Shown: positions 17,369 through 37,341 of the stretch, one piece after another
How positions within the stretch are numbered: the stretch's first letter is position 1
How the letters are laid out: the number at the start of each line of letters is the position of its first letter
From: Candidatus Hadarchaeum yellowstonense
GTDB taxonomy: Archaea > Hadarchaeota > Hadarchaeia > Hadarchaeales > Hadarchaeaceae
Direction of reading: 5' to 3'
NCBI GenBank assembly: GCA_001515205.2
Contig: LQMQ01000049.1
Location: 1-41,875 of the forward strand
Length of the DNA stretch: 41,875 nt
The notes under the pieces: model-generated
Seen by the model: the letters and a program-made list of their open reading frames with translations, nothing else
What the model was told of the DNA's origin: nothing
The model's database searches: none
Program-made: the position numbers and the translations under genes

Positions 17369-18190
17369 CTAATCACCTATTATAACTTTTCTTAAGATCT
17401 GAGAAAATCCCAGATAGGTGATGAAGTACCACCAGCCCACACCAAACACTACCAGGGGCCCGATAAAGGGAAGATCTATCCTGATGAAAGGAAGCCAAGC
17501 CACAACCCATCCCTTGAATATCTGACCTAAGGCGATCCACAAGACAAAGAGAGGAACCATGTAAATGAGCGTGGGCTTCATATTTTGCGAGGTGTTTTGC
17601 ATCATCAGCTTGTTTATCTCGGGCTGCTGCAGTTGGAGCTTGTGCACCAGCTTCATGTCCCTCTTTTTCATGGCCTCGCGATATTCCTTCTGGAATGCGT
17701 CTATCTTTGCCTTGTTCTGTTTTACCAGTTCCCAGTTCACCATCTTCTTGGATACCAGGTTCACAAAAAATGCCGCTGCAAAGGCGATCCCCATGATGAT
17801 GAAAAGAGAATATTCAAATAGAGGCGGAAGGTGGACGCCAATCAACGAAGCAGCCCGTACGACATCAGACCTCAACGAGAGGATATCGGATTCACTAGGG
17901 GACTGATAAACCACCGCAAATCTGTCTTTAATTCTATTATCAAGGGAAGGGTCTTTTTCCGCCACACCGAAACTGAAACTAATCAGGTACTCCTGGAAGG
18001 CCTGCCCAATATTGGCCTTGGCCGATTCACTGTCACCCCTGCGCAAAGAAGCGGCTGACGTGTCCAGTTTGTTGACGATATCAAACAGGCTCTCGCTGTC
18101 GCCCTGTCCTTGGGCCTGGGCCAGACCTGAAAACAGCAGCGAGGACGACACCAGCAGCACCAGCAGCAGCATCAGTTGTCTCTTCATCAT
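17369..18190 (-). CDS. EMC3/TMCO1-type (DUF106) Oxa1-superfamily membrane insertase homologue with extended N-terminus
   Basis: 273 aa; position between SecY/Adk and eL34 as in many archaea; coiled coil KIDAFQKEYREAMKKRDMKLVHKLQLQQPEINKLMMQNTSQNMKPTLIYMVPLFVLW. Confidence 0.85.
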   Translation of the reverse strand: MMKRQLMLLLVLLVSSSLLFSGLAQAQGQGDSESLFDIVNKLDTSAASLRRGDSESAKANIGQAFQEYLISFSFGVAEKDPSLDNRIKDRFAVVYQSPSESDILSLRSDVVRAASLIGVHLPPLFEYSLFIIMGIAFAAAFFVNLVSKKMVNWELVKQNKAKIDAFQKEYREAMKKRDMKLVHKLQLQQPEINKLMMQNTSQNMKPTLIYMVPLFVLWIALGQIFKGWVVAWLPFIRIDLPFIGPLVVFGVGWWYFITYLGFSQILRKVIIGD

Positions 18191-18191
18191 T

Positions 18192-18770
18192 TCACCTTAG
18201 CGCTGAGACTATATTATCCACCGCTTTTTTAAACCCTTTATCACTATTCTGGACGATCAAAACCGACGCCCCGGAAAGCGCAGCATAGGCGATCGCGGCC
18301 GCACGATTTAACTGCTGGTGTTCCGCTATCTCCTCCGTCAGCTCCCTCGCCCTGCGTCGTGATTTGTCCTTGGTCCGTCTTCTTCCAATTTCCTCCGGAT
18401 CAGCCTCCACCAAAATGAGGGACTCCGGTTTTAACTCCTCCAGAACCCATCTCGGCAGGCCGGGATAGTATCCCTCCGGCTTTTTCACCAGACAATGTGT
18501 GTCAACGAGAACTGGTTTTAACCGGGCCAAGCGAGAAATGCGTCGCGCGGCTTCTCGTTGAACCCTAGAGTAGAAAGCCAAGGGCATCTCTCGCAGGGCA
18601 TCGCGATCAACCTCTCCTTTCTTAGACCTGATGATCTCCAACATCACGTCGCCATAGTTGACGTGATGATAATCGACCCCCATCGCCCTCAACACCTTAA
18701 GAGCTTCCTTGATCAGCGTCGTTTTCCCCGAGCCGGGCACACCCGTCACGATGACCAGCTTCTCACTCAC
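18192..18770 (-). CDS. adkA: Archaeal adenylate kinase (AdkA type)
   Basis: GTG start at 18770: (V)SEKLVIVTGVPGSGKTTLIKEALKVLRAMGVDYHHVNYGDVMLEI...; follows SecY. The longer ORF start at 18806 is less likely. Confidence 0.93.
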   Translation of the reverse strand: MSEKLVIVTGVPGSGKTTLIKEALKVLRAMGVDYHHVNYGDVMLEIIRSKKGEVDRDALREMPLAFYSRVQREAARRISRLARLKPVLVDTHCLVKKPEGYYPGLPRWVLEELKPESLILVEADPEEIGRRRTKDKSRRRARELTEEIAEHQQLNRAAAIAYAALSGASVLIVQNSDKGFKKAVDNIVSALR

Positions 18771-20241
18771 CAAAGAGCCTCCTGACGGCCGGAAACATCT
18801 CCGCAACCTGTTCTTTAGCTATCTCCTGGTATAAGCTGTACATGATGCCCACCGTCAGGAGAATGCCCGTCCCGCTGCCCAAGGCTCCGAGAAAGTCCGC
18901 TCCCGCCGAAAGGAATCCCACAAAGGCTCCGCCGAGTAGTGCGGCGGTCATGATGTAGCGGCTCAGTACCCACTCCATCACCCTCACATCACGGCGGAAA
19001 CCAGGAATCAACATGCCCGATTCGTCCAGCTGCTTGGCCACGTCGCGCGGGCCCATTCCAGTCATGTGAACCCAGAGGTAGGCAAACCCCATGCTGGCCA
19101 GCACTAGAATTATCAGGTAAATGATGGCCCGGATGGGGTCAGCGGCAACCTGGGCCAGGCCGTTGGGAGCATCAGTGTAGTAGGAAATCCAGGGCGCCTT
19201 CAGGAGAGCGGCGAAAATCTTTAAGTTTGCAAAAACCGTCAGGGCTAAGATCACCGGAATATTGGAGGTGTAGAGAAATCTTATCGGGTAACGTCCCCTC
19301 ACCCCTCCAAACCTGCCGTAGGCCAGAGGAACCTCTATTCTCATGCTCTCGGCGTAAACCACGATGAAGAAGATGAGAATCGTCGCTATCAATCCCATCA
19401 TGTTCGGCAGGTGGGGCCTGAAAAACTCAGCGATGAAATCACCGTTGCTGAGCACCGTACCGATTATGTTGGGTATCACGCCTGTGGCCGGGTTCAGCGC
19501 CTCCCAGACCACGGTCATGGCGACACCCCCGGCTATGAAAAGGCTCACCCCGCTGCCGAAACCGTACTTGGAAACAACCTCATCCAGATAGATCACCACA
19601 GTTGCTCCCAGCGTGAGCTGCAAGACCAGCAACAGGCCTGCCGGGCTAAACAATCCCACATTCTTGCCATAATTCCCCGCCAGCACCAGCATCGATCCCT
19701 CAAAAACGGCCATGATTATCGCCAAAAACTTTTGTACTCCGGTAAACAAGGCCCGGTCCTCGCTTTCCGACAAGTTAAGGCCCACTATCTTGCTTCCCAC
19801 CAAAAGCTGCATCACTATGCCCGCGGTCACTATCGGGCCTATTCCCAGTTCCATCAGGCTACCCGCATGACTCGCCAAAACATACCTGAGCTGGCCGAAG
19901 AAATTTTGGGCCCCAGCATCCCAAACTCCGTTGCCATTCAAATCGGTGAAGGGCTCCAAAGCCGTCTCCCCGGGATCCATCACTCCGTTACCATTGGCAT
20001 CGATGAAGTCAAAGACACCGTTACCGTTGGTGTCGACAAAGGGCTCGCGCTGGGCAATACCATAGAGGGGTATCTGGGACATCAGATAGAAGATGATCAA
20101 CGCCACCCCGGTCCAGATGAATCTCTCCTTGAAGGCGACCCGTCTCTTGGGAACAGCCACTTCCGGCAGCCGGCGGATGATGGGATCCAGCGCGTAAAGC
20201 TTTGAACGCGGCTTCTCCTTAACCTCGTCCATCGCCTTCAC
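18763..20241 (-). CDS. secY: Preprotein translocase subunit SecY (with EF-hand-like insertion)
   Basis: 492 aa; SLMELGIGPIVTAGIVMQLLVGSKI, RYPIRFLYTSNIPVILALTVFANLKI, GMGPRDVAKQLDESGMLIPGFR. Confidence 0.97.
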   Translation of the reverse strand: MKAMDEVKEKPRSKLYALDPIIRRLPEVAVPKRRVAFKERFIWTGVALIIFYLMSQIPLYGIAQREPFVDTNGNGVFDFIDANGNGVMDPGETALEPFTDLNGNGVWDAGAQNFFGQLRYVLASHAGSLMELGIGPIVTAGIVMQLLVGSKIVGLNLSESEDRALFTGVQKFLAIIMAVFEGSMLVLAGNYGKNVGLFSPAGLLLVLQLTLGATVVIYLDEVVSKYGFGSGVSLFIAGGVAMTVVWEALNPATGVIPNIIGTVLSNGDFIAEFFRPHLPNMMGLIATILIFFIVVYAESMRIEVPLAYGRFGGVRGRYPIRFLYTSNIPVILALTVFANLKIFAALLKAPWISYYTDAPNGLAQVAADPIRAIIYLIILVLASMGFAYLWVHMTGMGPRDVAKQLDESGMLIPGFRRDVRVMEWVLSRYIMTAALLGGAFVGFLSAGADFLGALGSGTGILLTVGIMYSLYQEIAKEQVAEMFPAVRRLFGE

Positions 20242-20687
20242 CCAGCGATAGCCTTGCCACCCGCTTCCTCAATCTTCCGCTTGGCCGATTCAACAAAGGA
20301 TTTCGCCGTGACCTCCAGCTGATGGGTCACTTGGCCACCGCCGAGGACCTTGTCGATGCCAAGTTTATTAAGGTCCACAAAAAAGCGATCCCCCTCCCGT
20401 CTGGCCAAACCCAGCTCAACAAATTTGTCCAGATTTTCGTCTATCTCACCAACATTTATGACCCTTAGGCCGCGACGCACCGCCGCCGGTCGAGTGAACC
20501 CATGCTTGCCAAAGTAGTCCGGAAGATATCTGATGATGTAGGACCACTTGTGCTTGTGACCGCCGCTCATCCCCGTGCCGCCGCGTTCACCGCTGCCTCT
20601 TCCCCTTTTGGAACAACCCCTACCGTAAGTGCGCCTACCGCGCTGTTTTCTTACCTTTCTTCTCCTCCGAACGGTCATAAGAATCAC
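20238..20687 (-). CDS. rpl15: Ribosomal protein uL15
   Basis: 149 aa; RRRKVRKQRGRRTYGRGCSKRGRGSGERGGTGMSGGHKHKW. Confidence 0.96.
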   Translation of the reverse strand: MILMTVRRRRKVRKQRGRRTYGRGCSKRGRGSGERGGTGMSGGHKHKWSYIIRYLPDYFGKHGFTRPAAVRRGLRVINVGEIDENLDKFVELGLARREGDRFFVDLNKLGIDKVLGGGQVTHQLEVTAKSFVESAKRKIEEAGGKAIAG

Positions 20688-34773: not shown

Positions 34774-37341
34774 CTAGGCCACGCATAAAAATCTTTTTTT
34801 GAGGGGCTTCACCGCTTTCAGTACCTCAAACCAGAGCACGCTCGCGACACCCGCTGCAAAGCAAAAAACGATGTCCTCGGGGTGCAGGTAGGCCATCTTG
34901 AAAATGCCGCGGAGAACCGGGACATACAAGATCAAAAAGATGAAGGTCAGGGTTCCCCCGAGAACCAGCCACAGGGGAATGTTTCTGGTGCGGAGGGAGG
35001 ACAGCATGCTCTTCGACCAAGAGAGATTGGTCAAGATCAGGCAGATGTTGGCCACGATGAGGGTGACGTAGGTGAGCGCCCTTGCCTCAGCTTCACCCTG
35101 GCCGCGGTAATAGGAGAACACGAAGATGAGAAGCACCGCAGCGAGAACCACCAGCCCCTGAAGTATGCCTAGGGTCAAGGTTTTCCGGTTAAACATCTTC
35201 AGCTTCGGATCCCGGGGCGGACGGGACATAACATCCGGTTCCTCCGGCTGGGCTTCGAAGACAATCGAGCAAGCTGGATCAATGATGAGTTCCAGAAAGG
35301 CTATGTGGACCGGCAGAAGAACCAGCGGCATATTCAACAGCACCGGGATGAGAGTTATTCCCGCGATCGGTATGTGGATGGTGAAAATGTAAATCATCGC
35401 CTTCTTGATGTTGTCGTAAATCCGGCGTCCGTTTCTGACGGCCCGGACGATGGAAGTAAAGTCGTCATCAAGGAGGACGAGCGAGGCCGATTCCCGCGCC
35501 ACATCAGTTCCCCTTCCTCCCATCGCGACGCCAATGTTTGCCGACTTAAGCGCCGGGGCATCGTTGATCCCGTCTCCCGTCATCGCCACGACCTCGCCGT
35601 TGGCCTTGAAGGCATTCACTATCCTCAGCTTCTGCTCTGGAGTCACCCGGGCAAAGATGTTCACCTCTCTCACCTTCTCCCGGAGCCCCTCGTCGCTCAT
35701 CCTTTCCAGCTCAGGACCGGTCACCACACTACCAGCGGAGTCCAGCCCGATTTCCCTAGCTAGGTGCAGCGCCGTTCCGGGATAATCGCCGGTGATCATC
35801 ACCACCCTGATGCCGGCCTGGTGGCACTCCTCTATCGCCTCAGCAACTCCGGGTCTGGCCGGGTCCTTGAAACCGAGCAAGCCCAGAAACTCGAACCTGA
35901 AATCGTGCTGCTGGACGGGCAGATCAACTTTTTTAAAGTATGCCTTGGCCACACCAATTACCCTCAAGCCCTCGTCAGCCATCGCAGCAACTTTCTTTGA
36001 GATCTCAGCTAATCTTTCCCCCTCCAAGTGACAGAGATCAGCGATGGCCTCAGGGGCTCCCTTCGCGGCAATCACATATTCCTCCCCATCCGGAGAGCTC
36101 CATACCTGCGACATCGCTAGCAGCTTCTCCGAGAGGATGTACTCCTTGACCAAGCTCCAGTTGCGGTGAACATGCTCGGTGTTGGCGAGTTGCTTGTCCG
36201 AAAGCTGGTTGATCGCTTTCTCCATCGGATCTAGAGCATCCTTCCCGCTGGCGAGAACGCTGAACTCTAGGAGCTCGTGAAACTTCTCCGGCAGTGGCCC
36301 GTCTTTCTCAACATCGTAAAACTCATCATCCACCAGCATCTTCTTCAACATCATCTCATTCTGGGTGAGAGTGCCCGTCTTATCGACACAGAGAACCGTT
36401 GCCGCGCCAAGGGTTTCCAGGGAAGCCACCCTGCGGGTGAGCACCCTGCTCTTGGATATCCGCCAGGCCCCGAGAGCAAGGAAAACCGTCAGAACAACCG
36501 GGAACTCTTCCGGTATCACCGCCATCGCGAGCGTCAGCCCGGCGAGAAAACCGTGCAGCCAGTCACCTTTGGTGAGACCATAGGCCACGATCACGATGGC
36601 GCTCAAGATCAAGCCGAGCAGGGCGATATTTCGAACAAGTTTTCTGGTCTCCCTTTGCAGGGAGGTCTCTTCCGGGCCAAGGCTCTCCAGCGCCCTGCCT
36701 ATCTTTCCCATCTCGGTGTTCAAACCGGTGGCCAAGACCCTGACATAACCATGCCCCTTGACGACCAGCGTCCCGGAGTAAACAAACGGCTGGTCATCAC
36801 CTCCGGGTCTGCCCATCTTGGCCACGCCATCCCACGGCCTCTTTCTCACCGGAACTGACTCACCCGTGAGCAGGGACTCATCGACGAGAAGATGCATTGA
36901 ATCCAAAACCACTCCGTCAGCGGGCACCCTGTCTCCTTCCTTGAGGAGAAGCAGATCCCCCCGGACAACTTCCCTCCCGGGGATTCTCAGCATCCTTCCA
37001 CCGCGAATGACCAGCGTCCTCGGGCTGGACAGGTGCCTCAGGGCCTCCAACGCCCTTTCCGTCCTTCTTTCCTGGTAGATGGTTATTCCAATTATCACGA
37101 AGACAAAGCTCATCAGGATGGCCGCTTCCTCGATGTCCCCGAGCAGCAGATAAATTGAGCCGATCGCGATCAGGAGCAAAAACATTGGCTCCTTGATCAC
37201 CTCAAAGATTATCCTGAGGATTCCCCTCTCCTCGGCGCGAGGCAACTCGTTGTAACCCTCGGCCTCAAGCCTCCGGGCAGCCTCCTCGGGAGACAGGCCT
37301 TCAAAACCTGCCTGGCTTTCCAAAGTTGTCCCTTTTTGCAT
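34774..37341 (-). CDS. P-type (type II-like) cation-transporting ATPase, putative Ca2+/cation pump
   Basis: 855 aa; VDKTGTLTQNEM phosphorylation motif, LLTGESVPV, MTGDGINDAPALK, TM4 motif VIPEEFPVVLT. Confidence 0.93.
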   Translation of the reverse strand: MQKGTTLESQAGFEGLSPEEAARRLEAEGYNELPRAEERGILRIIFEVIKEPMFLLLIAIGSIYLLLGDIEEAAILMSFVFVIIGITIYQERRTERALEALRHLSSPRTLVIRGGRMLRIPGREVVRGDLLLLKEGDRVPADGVVLDSMHLLVDESLLTGESVPVRKRPWDGVAKMGRPGGDDQPFVYSGTLVVKGHGYVRVLATGLNTEMGKIGRALESLGPEETSLQRETRKLVRNIALLGLILSAIVIVAYGLTKGDWLHGFLAGLTLAMAVIPEEFPVVLTVFLALGAWRISKSRVLTRRVASLETLGAATVLCVDKTGTLTQNEMMLKKMLVDDEFYDVEKDGPLPEKFHELLEFSVLASGKDALDPMEKAINQLSDKQLANTEHVHRNWSLVKEYILSEKLLAMSQVWSSPDGEEYVIAAKGAPEAIADLCHLEGERLAEISKKVAAMADEGLRVIGVAKAYFKKVDLPVQQHDFRFEFLGLLGFKDPARPGVAEAIEECHQAGIRVVMITGDYPGTALHLAREIGLDSAGSVVTGPELERMSDEGLREKVREVNIFARVTPEQKLRIVNAFKANGEVVAMTGDGINDAPALKSANIGVAMGGRGTDVARESASLVLLDDDFTSIVRAVRNGRRIYDNIKKAMIYIFTIHIPIAGITLIPVLLNMPLVLLPVHIAFLELIIDPACSIVFEAQPEEPDVMSRPPRDPKLKMFNRKTLTLGILQGLVVLAAVLLIFVFSYYRGQGEAEARALTYVTLIVANICLILTNLSWSKSMLSSLRTRNIPLWLVLGGTLTFIFLILYVPVLRGIFKMAYLHPEDIVFCFAAGVASVLWFEVLKAVKPLKKRFLCVA

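Follow-up and report, generated by a model that had tools for sequence, protein, structure and literature searches.

The window (the whole 41,875-nucleotide stretch analysed, from Candidatus Hadarchaeum yellowstonense) lies on contig 47 of a 1.23-Mb genome that is 95% complete. It holds a spc-type ribosomal operon in the usual archaeal order, in which the genes for L18, S5, L30 and L15 lead into secY, followed by adenylate kinase and an Oxa1/EMC3-like insertase. Relatives of the locus that carry names come from Hadesarchaea / "Hodarchaeaceae" MAGs (JACIWF010000021.1, JAUWXQ010000008.1, JASEJC010000002.1), which places the organism in the Hadarchaeota. The features considered here are:

20238..20687, minus strand: ribosomal protein L15, upstream of secY, named by recognition; operon order conserved in relatives
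18763..20241, minus strand: secY, preprotein translocase channel subunit, 492 aa, GTG start
20065..20121, minus strand: TM1 of SecY, residues ~41-59 (hydropathy; alignment to 3mp7 and 1rhz)
19912..20049, minus strand: inserted module REPFVDTNGNGVFDFIDANGNGVMDPGETALEPFTDLNGNGVWDAG, residues 65-110, ~46 aa (alignment with insert-free relatives; selection test)
19999..20034, minus strand: loop 1 DTNGNGVFDFID, residues 70-81; position 12 is Asp81, doubling as position 1 of loop 2
19966..20001, minus strand: loop 2 DANGNGVMDPGE, residues 81-92; all EF-loop ligands, Glu92 at position 12; only in the window's genus
19909..19944, minus strand: loop 3 DLNGNGVWDAGA, residues 100-111; invariant in the four insert-bearing SecY except for one G/N change; position 12 without acid
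19834..19902, minus strand: plug/TM2a region FFGQLRYVLASHAGSLMELGIGP, residues 114-136, immediately after the insert (alignment to 1rhz and 3mp7; conserved in relatives)
18192..18806, minus strand: archaeal-type adenylate kinase, recognised from its sequence and from the operon order usual in archaea; lies between secY and the Oxa1-like gene
17369..18190, minus strand: Oxa1/EMC3-like (archaeal YidC) insertase (Pfam EMC3_TMCO1, 2.3e-16), with a ~100-aa N-terminal extracytoplasmic region without an EF-like module
34774-37341: type II cation P-type ATPase

The secY product was identified over its full length (Pfam SecY, 2.6e-69; NCBIfam NF006341, 380 bits, above cut-off; PDB 3mp7, 4e-114), and a genome-wide count found it to be the single SecY copy. 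An initial annotation had described three DxNGNGxxD loops at 19909-20052; this segment corresponds exactly to SecY residues 64-111 and contains the motifs as described, DTNGNGVFD (70-78), DANGNGVMD (81-89) and DLNGNGVWD (100-108), the insert starting after TM1 (..SQIPLYGI) and ending before the plug region FFGQLRYVLASHAGSLMELGIGP. Judged by the ligands of a 12-residue EF loop (positions 1, 3, 5, 9 and 12, plus Gly6), loop 2 is indeed the full loop with Glu at position 12 that had been proposed, loop 1 has Asp there, and loop 3 is incomplete, with Ala at position 12 in the window's SecY and no acid at that position in any SecY, while in G004 both loops are without the position-12 acid. The ligand positions of the first and last motifs are invariant across the carrier genera. 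Moreover, EPFxDxNGNGVxD recurs at residues 66 and 96, giving the 30-residue (90-nt) period noted before, but the native period is 15 residues, of which 30 residues make two, and the middle unit is shifted (motif spacings of 11 and 19); an internal duplication within secY is not required, the tandem state being normal for this module elsewhere. A search of all 1.23 Mb of the genome found DxNGNGxxD three times, always in secY, and the reversed-pattern control gave no occurrence; the motif cluster is no chance effect.

The inserted stretch has no partner in the SecY of P. furiosus (3mp7) or M. jannaschii (1rhz), where the alignment places it between TM1 and the plug helix, and the residues that follow it align to the plug helix. 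The match to Pfam Plug_translocon (PF10559) stops at profile position 16 of 35 because the insert interrupts the plug domain, whereas insert-free Hadarchaeota SecY matches positions 1-35; by its sequence, the protein with the interrupted PF10559 is a variant that is still SecY. In known SecY, the TM1-TM2a loop lies outside, TM2a is the plug, and deletion of the plug is tolerated (PMC8675477). Residues 1-40 of the window's SecY hold 12 K+R against 6 D+E, and residues 65-113 (49 aa) hold 9 acidic residues and 1 basic residue. From homology with the solved structures and this positive-inside charge distribution we infer that the insert is extracytoplasmic and next to the plug, where the initial annotation had also placed it. 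An AlphaFold model of the whole SecY, from a four-row alignment, reached a pLDDT of 35.

When 84,980 genomes were scanned with a profile of the insert, 80 loci were returned, three of them Hadarchaeota SecY and the other 77 nearly all bacterial; none of the non-SecY loci had a multi-spanning host where the host protein was readable. The native unit in these loci is 15 residues long (D-x-N-G-N-G-x-[YWF]-D-x-G-E-P-F-T), and in a collection of 42 distinct tandem pairs spaced by exactly 15 residues, drawn from many phyla of bacteria, D1, N3, N5, G6 and D9 are invariant or nearly so. Among ten hosts scanned were three TonB-dependent receptors, four TadE-like proteins, a weak ceramidase-like match and two unnamed proteins, each with a single signal-like TM. 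Repeat spacing is 15 in the SecY of G008 and in the Oxa1-like protein of G021, 16 in the SecY of G004, and 30, or 2 x 15, in the window's SecY. Taken together, repeat and spacing identify the SecY insert as an instance of a portable, bacterial-type tandem DxNGNG module. Eight module-rich bacteria were also examined, and the five of their SecY that were readable across the loop had an ordinary short loop without the module. Spread from a local surface protein within the genome was considered and set aside, since the genome holds no second module copy.

No Pfam model for the module reached its cut-off. Of the EF-hand-like repeat originally described, the EF-hand-like loops stand, and assignment to an EF-hand domain does not: the best match, EF-hand_6, scored 14.5 bits against a cut-off of 25, and no helices lie beside the loops, which abut each other (D81 is common to two). 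Dockerin type I likewise failed (Dockerin_1, 7.9 bits against 22.9), that type needing two 22-residue repeats with helices, and SdrD B and GEVED membership lay under the Pfam cut-offs. An AlphaFold model of the two-unit module of G008, built on 42 rows, is helix-less; its pLDDT across residues 11-30 is 93 and 91, and a bridge joins the two Phe located in front of the loops. Foldseek found no match to this model. Tandem EF-loop module is therefore the apt name. The best PDB profile matches were weak, namely the ubiquitin fusions 3vdz and 2ojr with GYIDTNNDGWIEGDELYIDTNNDGWIEGDE-type tags (E.03 and.08), which we take to be engineered tandem lanthanide-binding tags, that is, two helix-less EF loops 15 residues apart. 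These tags could be the nearest physical precedent for how the module holds metal, its binding being predicted by analogy. The 15-residue tandem module (EPFTDxNGNGxYDxGE), seen at loci L089-L165 across many phyla of bacteria, thus looks like a tandem lanthanide-binding tag of natural origin.

Within Hadarchaeota, the insert was found in 4 of the 26 genomes whose SecY was readable across the TM1-plug junction (one genome of this set having a second SecY), and the remaining 22 were without it. Three loops are present in the window's genome (G000) and in G001 of the same genus, and two in G004 and G008, from two other genera; G012 and G015, which share the genus of G008, and the G002/G009/G013 group have SecY without insert, and from this patchiness the insert is dispensable for SecY function. 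The junction is identical in the four carriers (R-E-x-F ... W-D-A-G-[AV]-Q-x-F-F-G-Q-L). In a tree of seven concatenated operon proteins, with the insert excluded, the carriers all fall inside one well supported nine-genome clade, but not together, and their pattern needs three changes. A single clade of all four carriers was rejected (AU test, p = 0.023), so that loss or repeated gain is required; one gain with two losses appears the plainest history from the sequence tree, and repeated gain is also possible.

Beyond the phylum, 394 archaeal genomes were surveyed by profile and 384 of them yielded a SecY N-terminus, among which the search suggested by the initial annotation gave only the four Hadarchaeota carriers and no EF-loop insert outside them, a rarity that applies to the surveyed sample (590 of ~98,000 genomes) and to long inserts, which split the profile hit (short inserts would leave it unsplit). 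Other split hits came from only seven genomes of two families (f12 and f70), whose extensions are helical and have no metal loop. These helical extensions (loci L168 and L171-L177) lie in the same TM1-plug loop and are ~25-35 residues long, e.g., LSPSRLEKIKMQNPVLYEQLAQQRQDVLNRVSYLESVQ. Additional SecY genes were noted as well: G015 has a second, strongly diverged SecY (L055:3167-4849, G015:C19), in which LGIMPIVHAGGLMQ replaces LGIGPIVTAGIIMQ, next to a canonical SecY (L056), and two other archaeal genomes have a second SecY-like gene (L181, G101:C73; L180, G195:C1:545301). Literature searches on SecY with EF-hand, plug and archaea, on Hadarchaeota with SecY, and on the string DxNGNG gave nothing, in agreement with the earlier impression that this architecture is undescribed in characterised SecY.

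Selection on the insert was compared with that on the rest of SecY by uncorrected Nei-Gojobori proportions (pN/pS). Between G000 and G001 the values were.046/.630 for the insert and.048/.643 for the rest; the comparison with G004 gave.173/.857 and.170/.682, and that with G008.185/.529 and.179/.764, respectively. Over 50 codons of the G000-G001 insert there were 20 synonymous and 4 amino-acid changes. The insert is under purifying selection as strong as that on the SecY core, which speaks against a neutral segment of recent capture, at least within the window's genus.

A second host was found in G021, from another genus, where SecY is plain and the Oxa1-like protein carries GEPFTDSNGNGRYDEGEPFDDLNGNGVWDQP cleanly inserted in its N-terminal extracytoplasmic region, at a point where close relatives read ..SLQQSATEENIRDLRS. 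The gene is:

L040:2265-3179 = G021:C6:6764-7678, minus strand: Oxa1/EMC3-like orthologue (Pfam EMC3_TMCO1, 4.2e-25), carrying a two-unit module

Across all 28 genomes of the Hadarchaeota set, the module profile scored E < 1e-11 only in the four secY genes and this one Oxa1-like gene, all other matches being weaker than 0.05. Both host genes belong to one operon, the Oxa1-like gene lying two to three genes downstream of secY, and SecY and the YidC/Oxa1 family are of common origin, each acting in the insertion of membrane proteins (PMC8675477). Had the module landed randomly in the envelope proteins, it would be a striking coincidence that its only hosts are two insertases encoded in one operon; alternatively, local gene conversion or the small number of events (two) may account for this. 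The module in the G021 protein suggests that it is of use on the outer face of the machines that insert membrane proteins. A further step would be that Hadarchaeota independently gave SecY and the Oxa1/EMC3-like YidC the same external module, and so a useful metal-clamped translocon mouth, perhaps with a metal-dependent SecY-YidC or translocon-envelope contact; we regard this proposal as unlikely, and if true it would be a lineage-specific new layer of translocon architecture.

The initial annotation had also pointed to an extra extracytoplasmic region in the neighbouring Oxa1-like protein, which is present but phylum-wide and without EF-like loops in the window's protein. In this protein (17369-18190) and its orthologues (L032-L057), a signal-like helix at the N-terminus is accompanied by ~100 extracytoplasmic residues that match no Pfam model and that Oxa1-like proteins of other archaea (L059-L062) lack. 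The functional link once suggested with the P-type ATPase found no support, the ATPase being present in G000, G001 and G018 and absent from the insert-bearing G004 and G008. Its distribution in the phylum is patchy (G000, a fragment in G001, and G018 at 73% identity), and two more P-type ATPases lie head to head on contig 48 of the window's genome (G000:C48:540-5774).

In this context, we propose that a portable, helix-less Ca2+-loop module was grafted into the outer TM1-plug loop of SecY in one Hadarchaeota clade and kept by selection, acting at the channel's outer mouth as a constitutively metal-loaded clamp or docking loop, a reading to which we assign about an even chance and in which metal binding is predicted. 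The acidic loop would lie outside once SecY is in the membrane, and its loops would load Ca2+ or a similar hard cation, near-permanently at extracellular concentrations. With metal bound, ~46 residues that are otherwise floppy would form a compact, rigid knob where the channel opens to the outside, and this knob could stiffen the TM1-plug connection (closed state, thermal stability) and/or offer a rigid surface to partners. The metal affinity of the predicted loops may be low, because loop 3 is without the position-12 acid in all SecY and G004 is without it in both loops.

The insert may instead be a tolerated spacer, that is, a module captured by recombination into a permissive loop, which may bind metal and does little for SecY while selection keeps it soluble and folded. 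Its patchiness, which given the AU result takes two or more losses or else several gains, the varying number of units (2 or 3), and the unrelated helical extensions in the same loop of two other archaeal families, which indicate that the site tolerates inserts, agree with such a spacer. Against it, selection on the insert equals that on the core, junctions and last motif are invariant across genera, and conservation of all ligand positions would not be needed in a pure spacer; we see this as a lesser but serious possibility. In other proteins of the envelope, such as dockerins and S-layers, contacts are made through tandem Ca2+ loops, and a Ca2+-loaded module could be a docking element for an outside partner (an S-layer or envelope protein, the Oxa1-like insertase, or emerging chains), with the carrier subunit depending on the species. 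This agrees with the restriction of the module, across 28 genomes, to two host genes that share an operon and each encode a membrane-protein insertase, but no species has the module in both secY and the Oxa1-like gene, and the likeness of the two hosts could stem from local gene conversion or chance; docking as the main role is rather improbable.

A Ca2+-sensing gate, in which changes in outside Ca2+ would alter the loop and, with it, plug stability and export, is close to the Ca2+-responsive module first proposed, for which no supporting evidence was found. Although the insert adjoins the plug and loop 2 has a full ligand set, a regulatory switch is less likely, and we consider it very improbable, because loop 2 is missing from two of the three carrier genera, the last loop has no position-12 acid and both loops of G004 are without it, there is no canonical EF-hand pair with helices to move, the ATPase does not co-occur, and external Ca2+ is seldom low and would normally suffice to keep the loops loaded. 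Finally, every genome is a metagenome assembly, and an assembly error had been named as a possible refutation; yet the insert is present in four independent assemblies, with different codons, in one reading frame and within an ordinary archaeal operon, making an artefact of assembly, binning or annotation a negligible prospect.

SecY is among the most conserved membrane proteins, and a domain grafted beside its plug was undescribed in the literature searched. That this known protein carries a widespread, unnamed loop module is real and conserved, and the proposed clamp is its inferred mechanism. The carriers offer a natural experiment on how far the TM1-plug hinge can be altered, on whether outside metal ions stabilise the closed channel, and on whether archaeal SecY and a YidC-like insertase cooperate outside the membrane. 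Furthermore, they point to a widespread 15-residue loop module unrecognised by Pfam, and an external, metal-stabilised clamp on protein-export machines is now a testable idea.

Among known systems, the eukaryotic Sec61 has neighbours, TRAP-alpha and Sec62, in which Ca2+-binding motifs have been proposed (PMC7276530); these would lie beside the same channel, but in accessory subunits and not in a channel insert, an analogy with no claim of homology. EF-hands, dockerins, SdrD B and the Ca2+ loops of the S-layer protein SlpA have in common with the module the 12-residue D-x-N-x-N-G-x-x-D-x-x-E loop, whereas the module has helix-less flanks, a 15-residue head-to-tail period and Pfam scores below cut-off. 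The double lanthanide-binding tag on ubiquitin (2ojr, 3vdz) is nearer, with tandem helix-less EF loops at 15 residues, Glu at position 12 and an aromatic near the loop end, although the tag is designed and the natural module has N at position 5 and W/Y at position 8 instead of 7. The helical extensions of other archaeal SecY (L168, L171-L177) add residues in the same loop, but are helical and without a metal-loop motif. The SecY of P. furiosus (3mp7) and M. jannaschii (1rhz) and that of the window, its sole genome copy, have in common the 10-TM channel, the plug, the conserved GIGPIVTAG and the place in the operon, and the window's protein differs in that ~46 added residues, containing metal-loop motifs, separate TM1 from the plug helix. 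The bacterial DxNGNG module (TonB receptors, TadE-like and ceramidase-like proteins) resembles this insert in its repeat, its outside location and its insertion in a loop of an unrelated host, and its spacing is that of the two-unit SecY forms, whereas the window's SecY has three units at an irregular 11 + 19; unlike the bacterial hosts, the host in Hadarchaeota is an essential polytopic translocon subunit of an archaeon.
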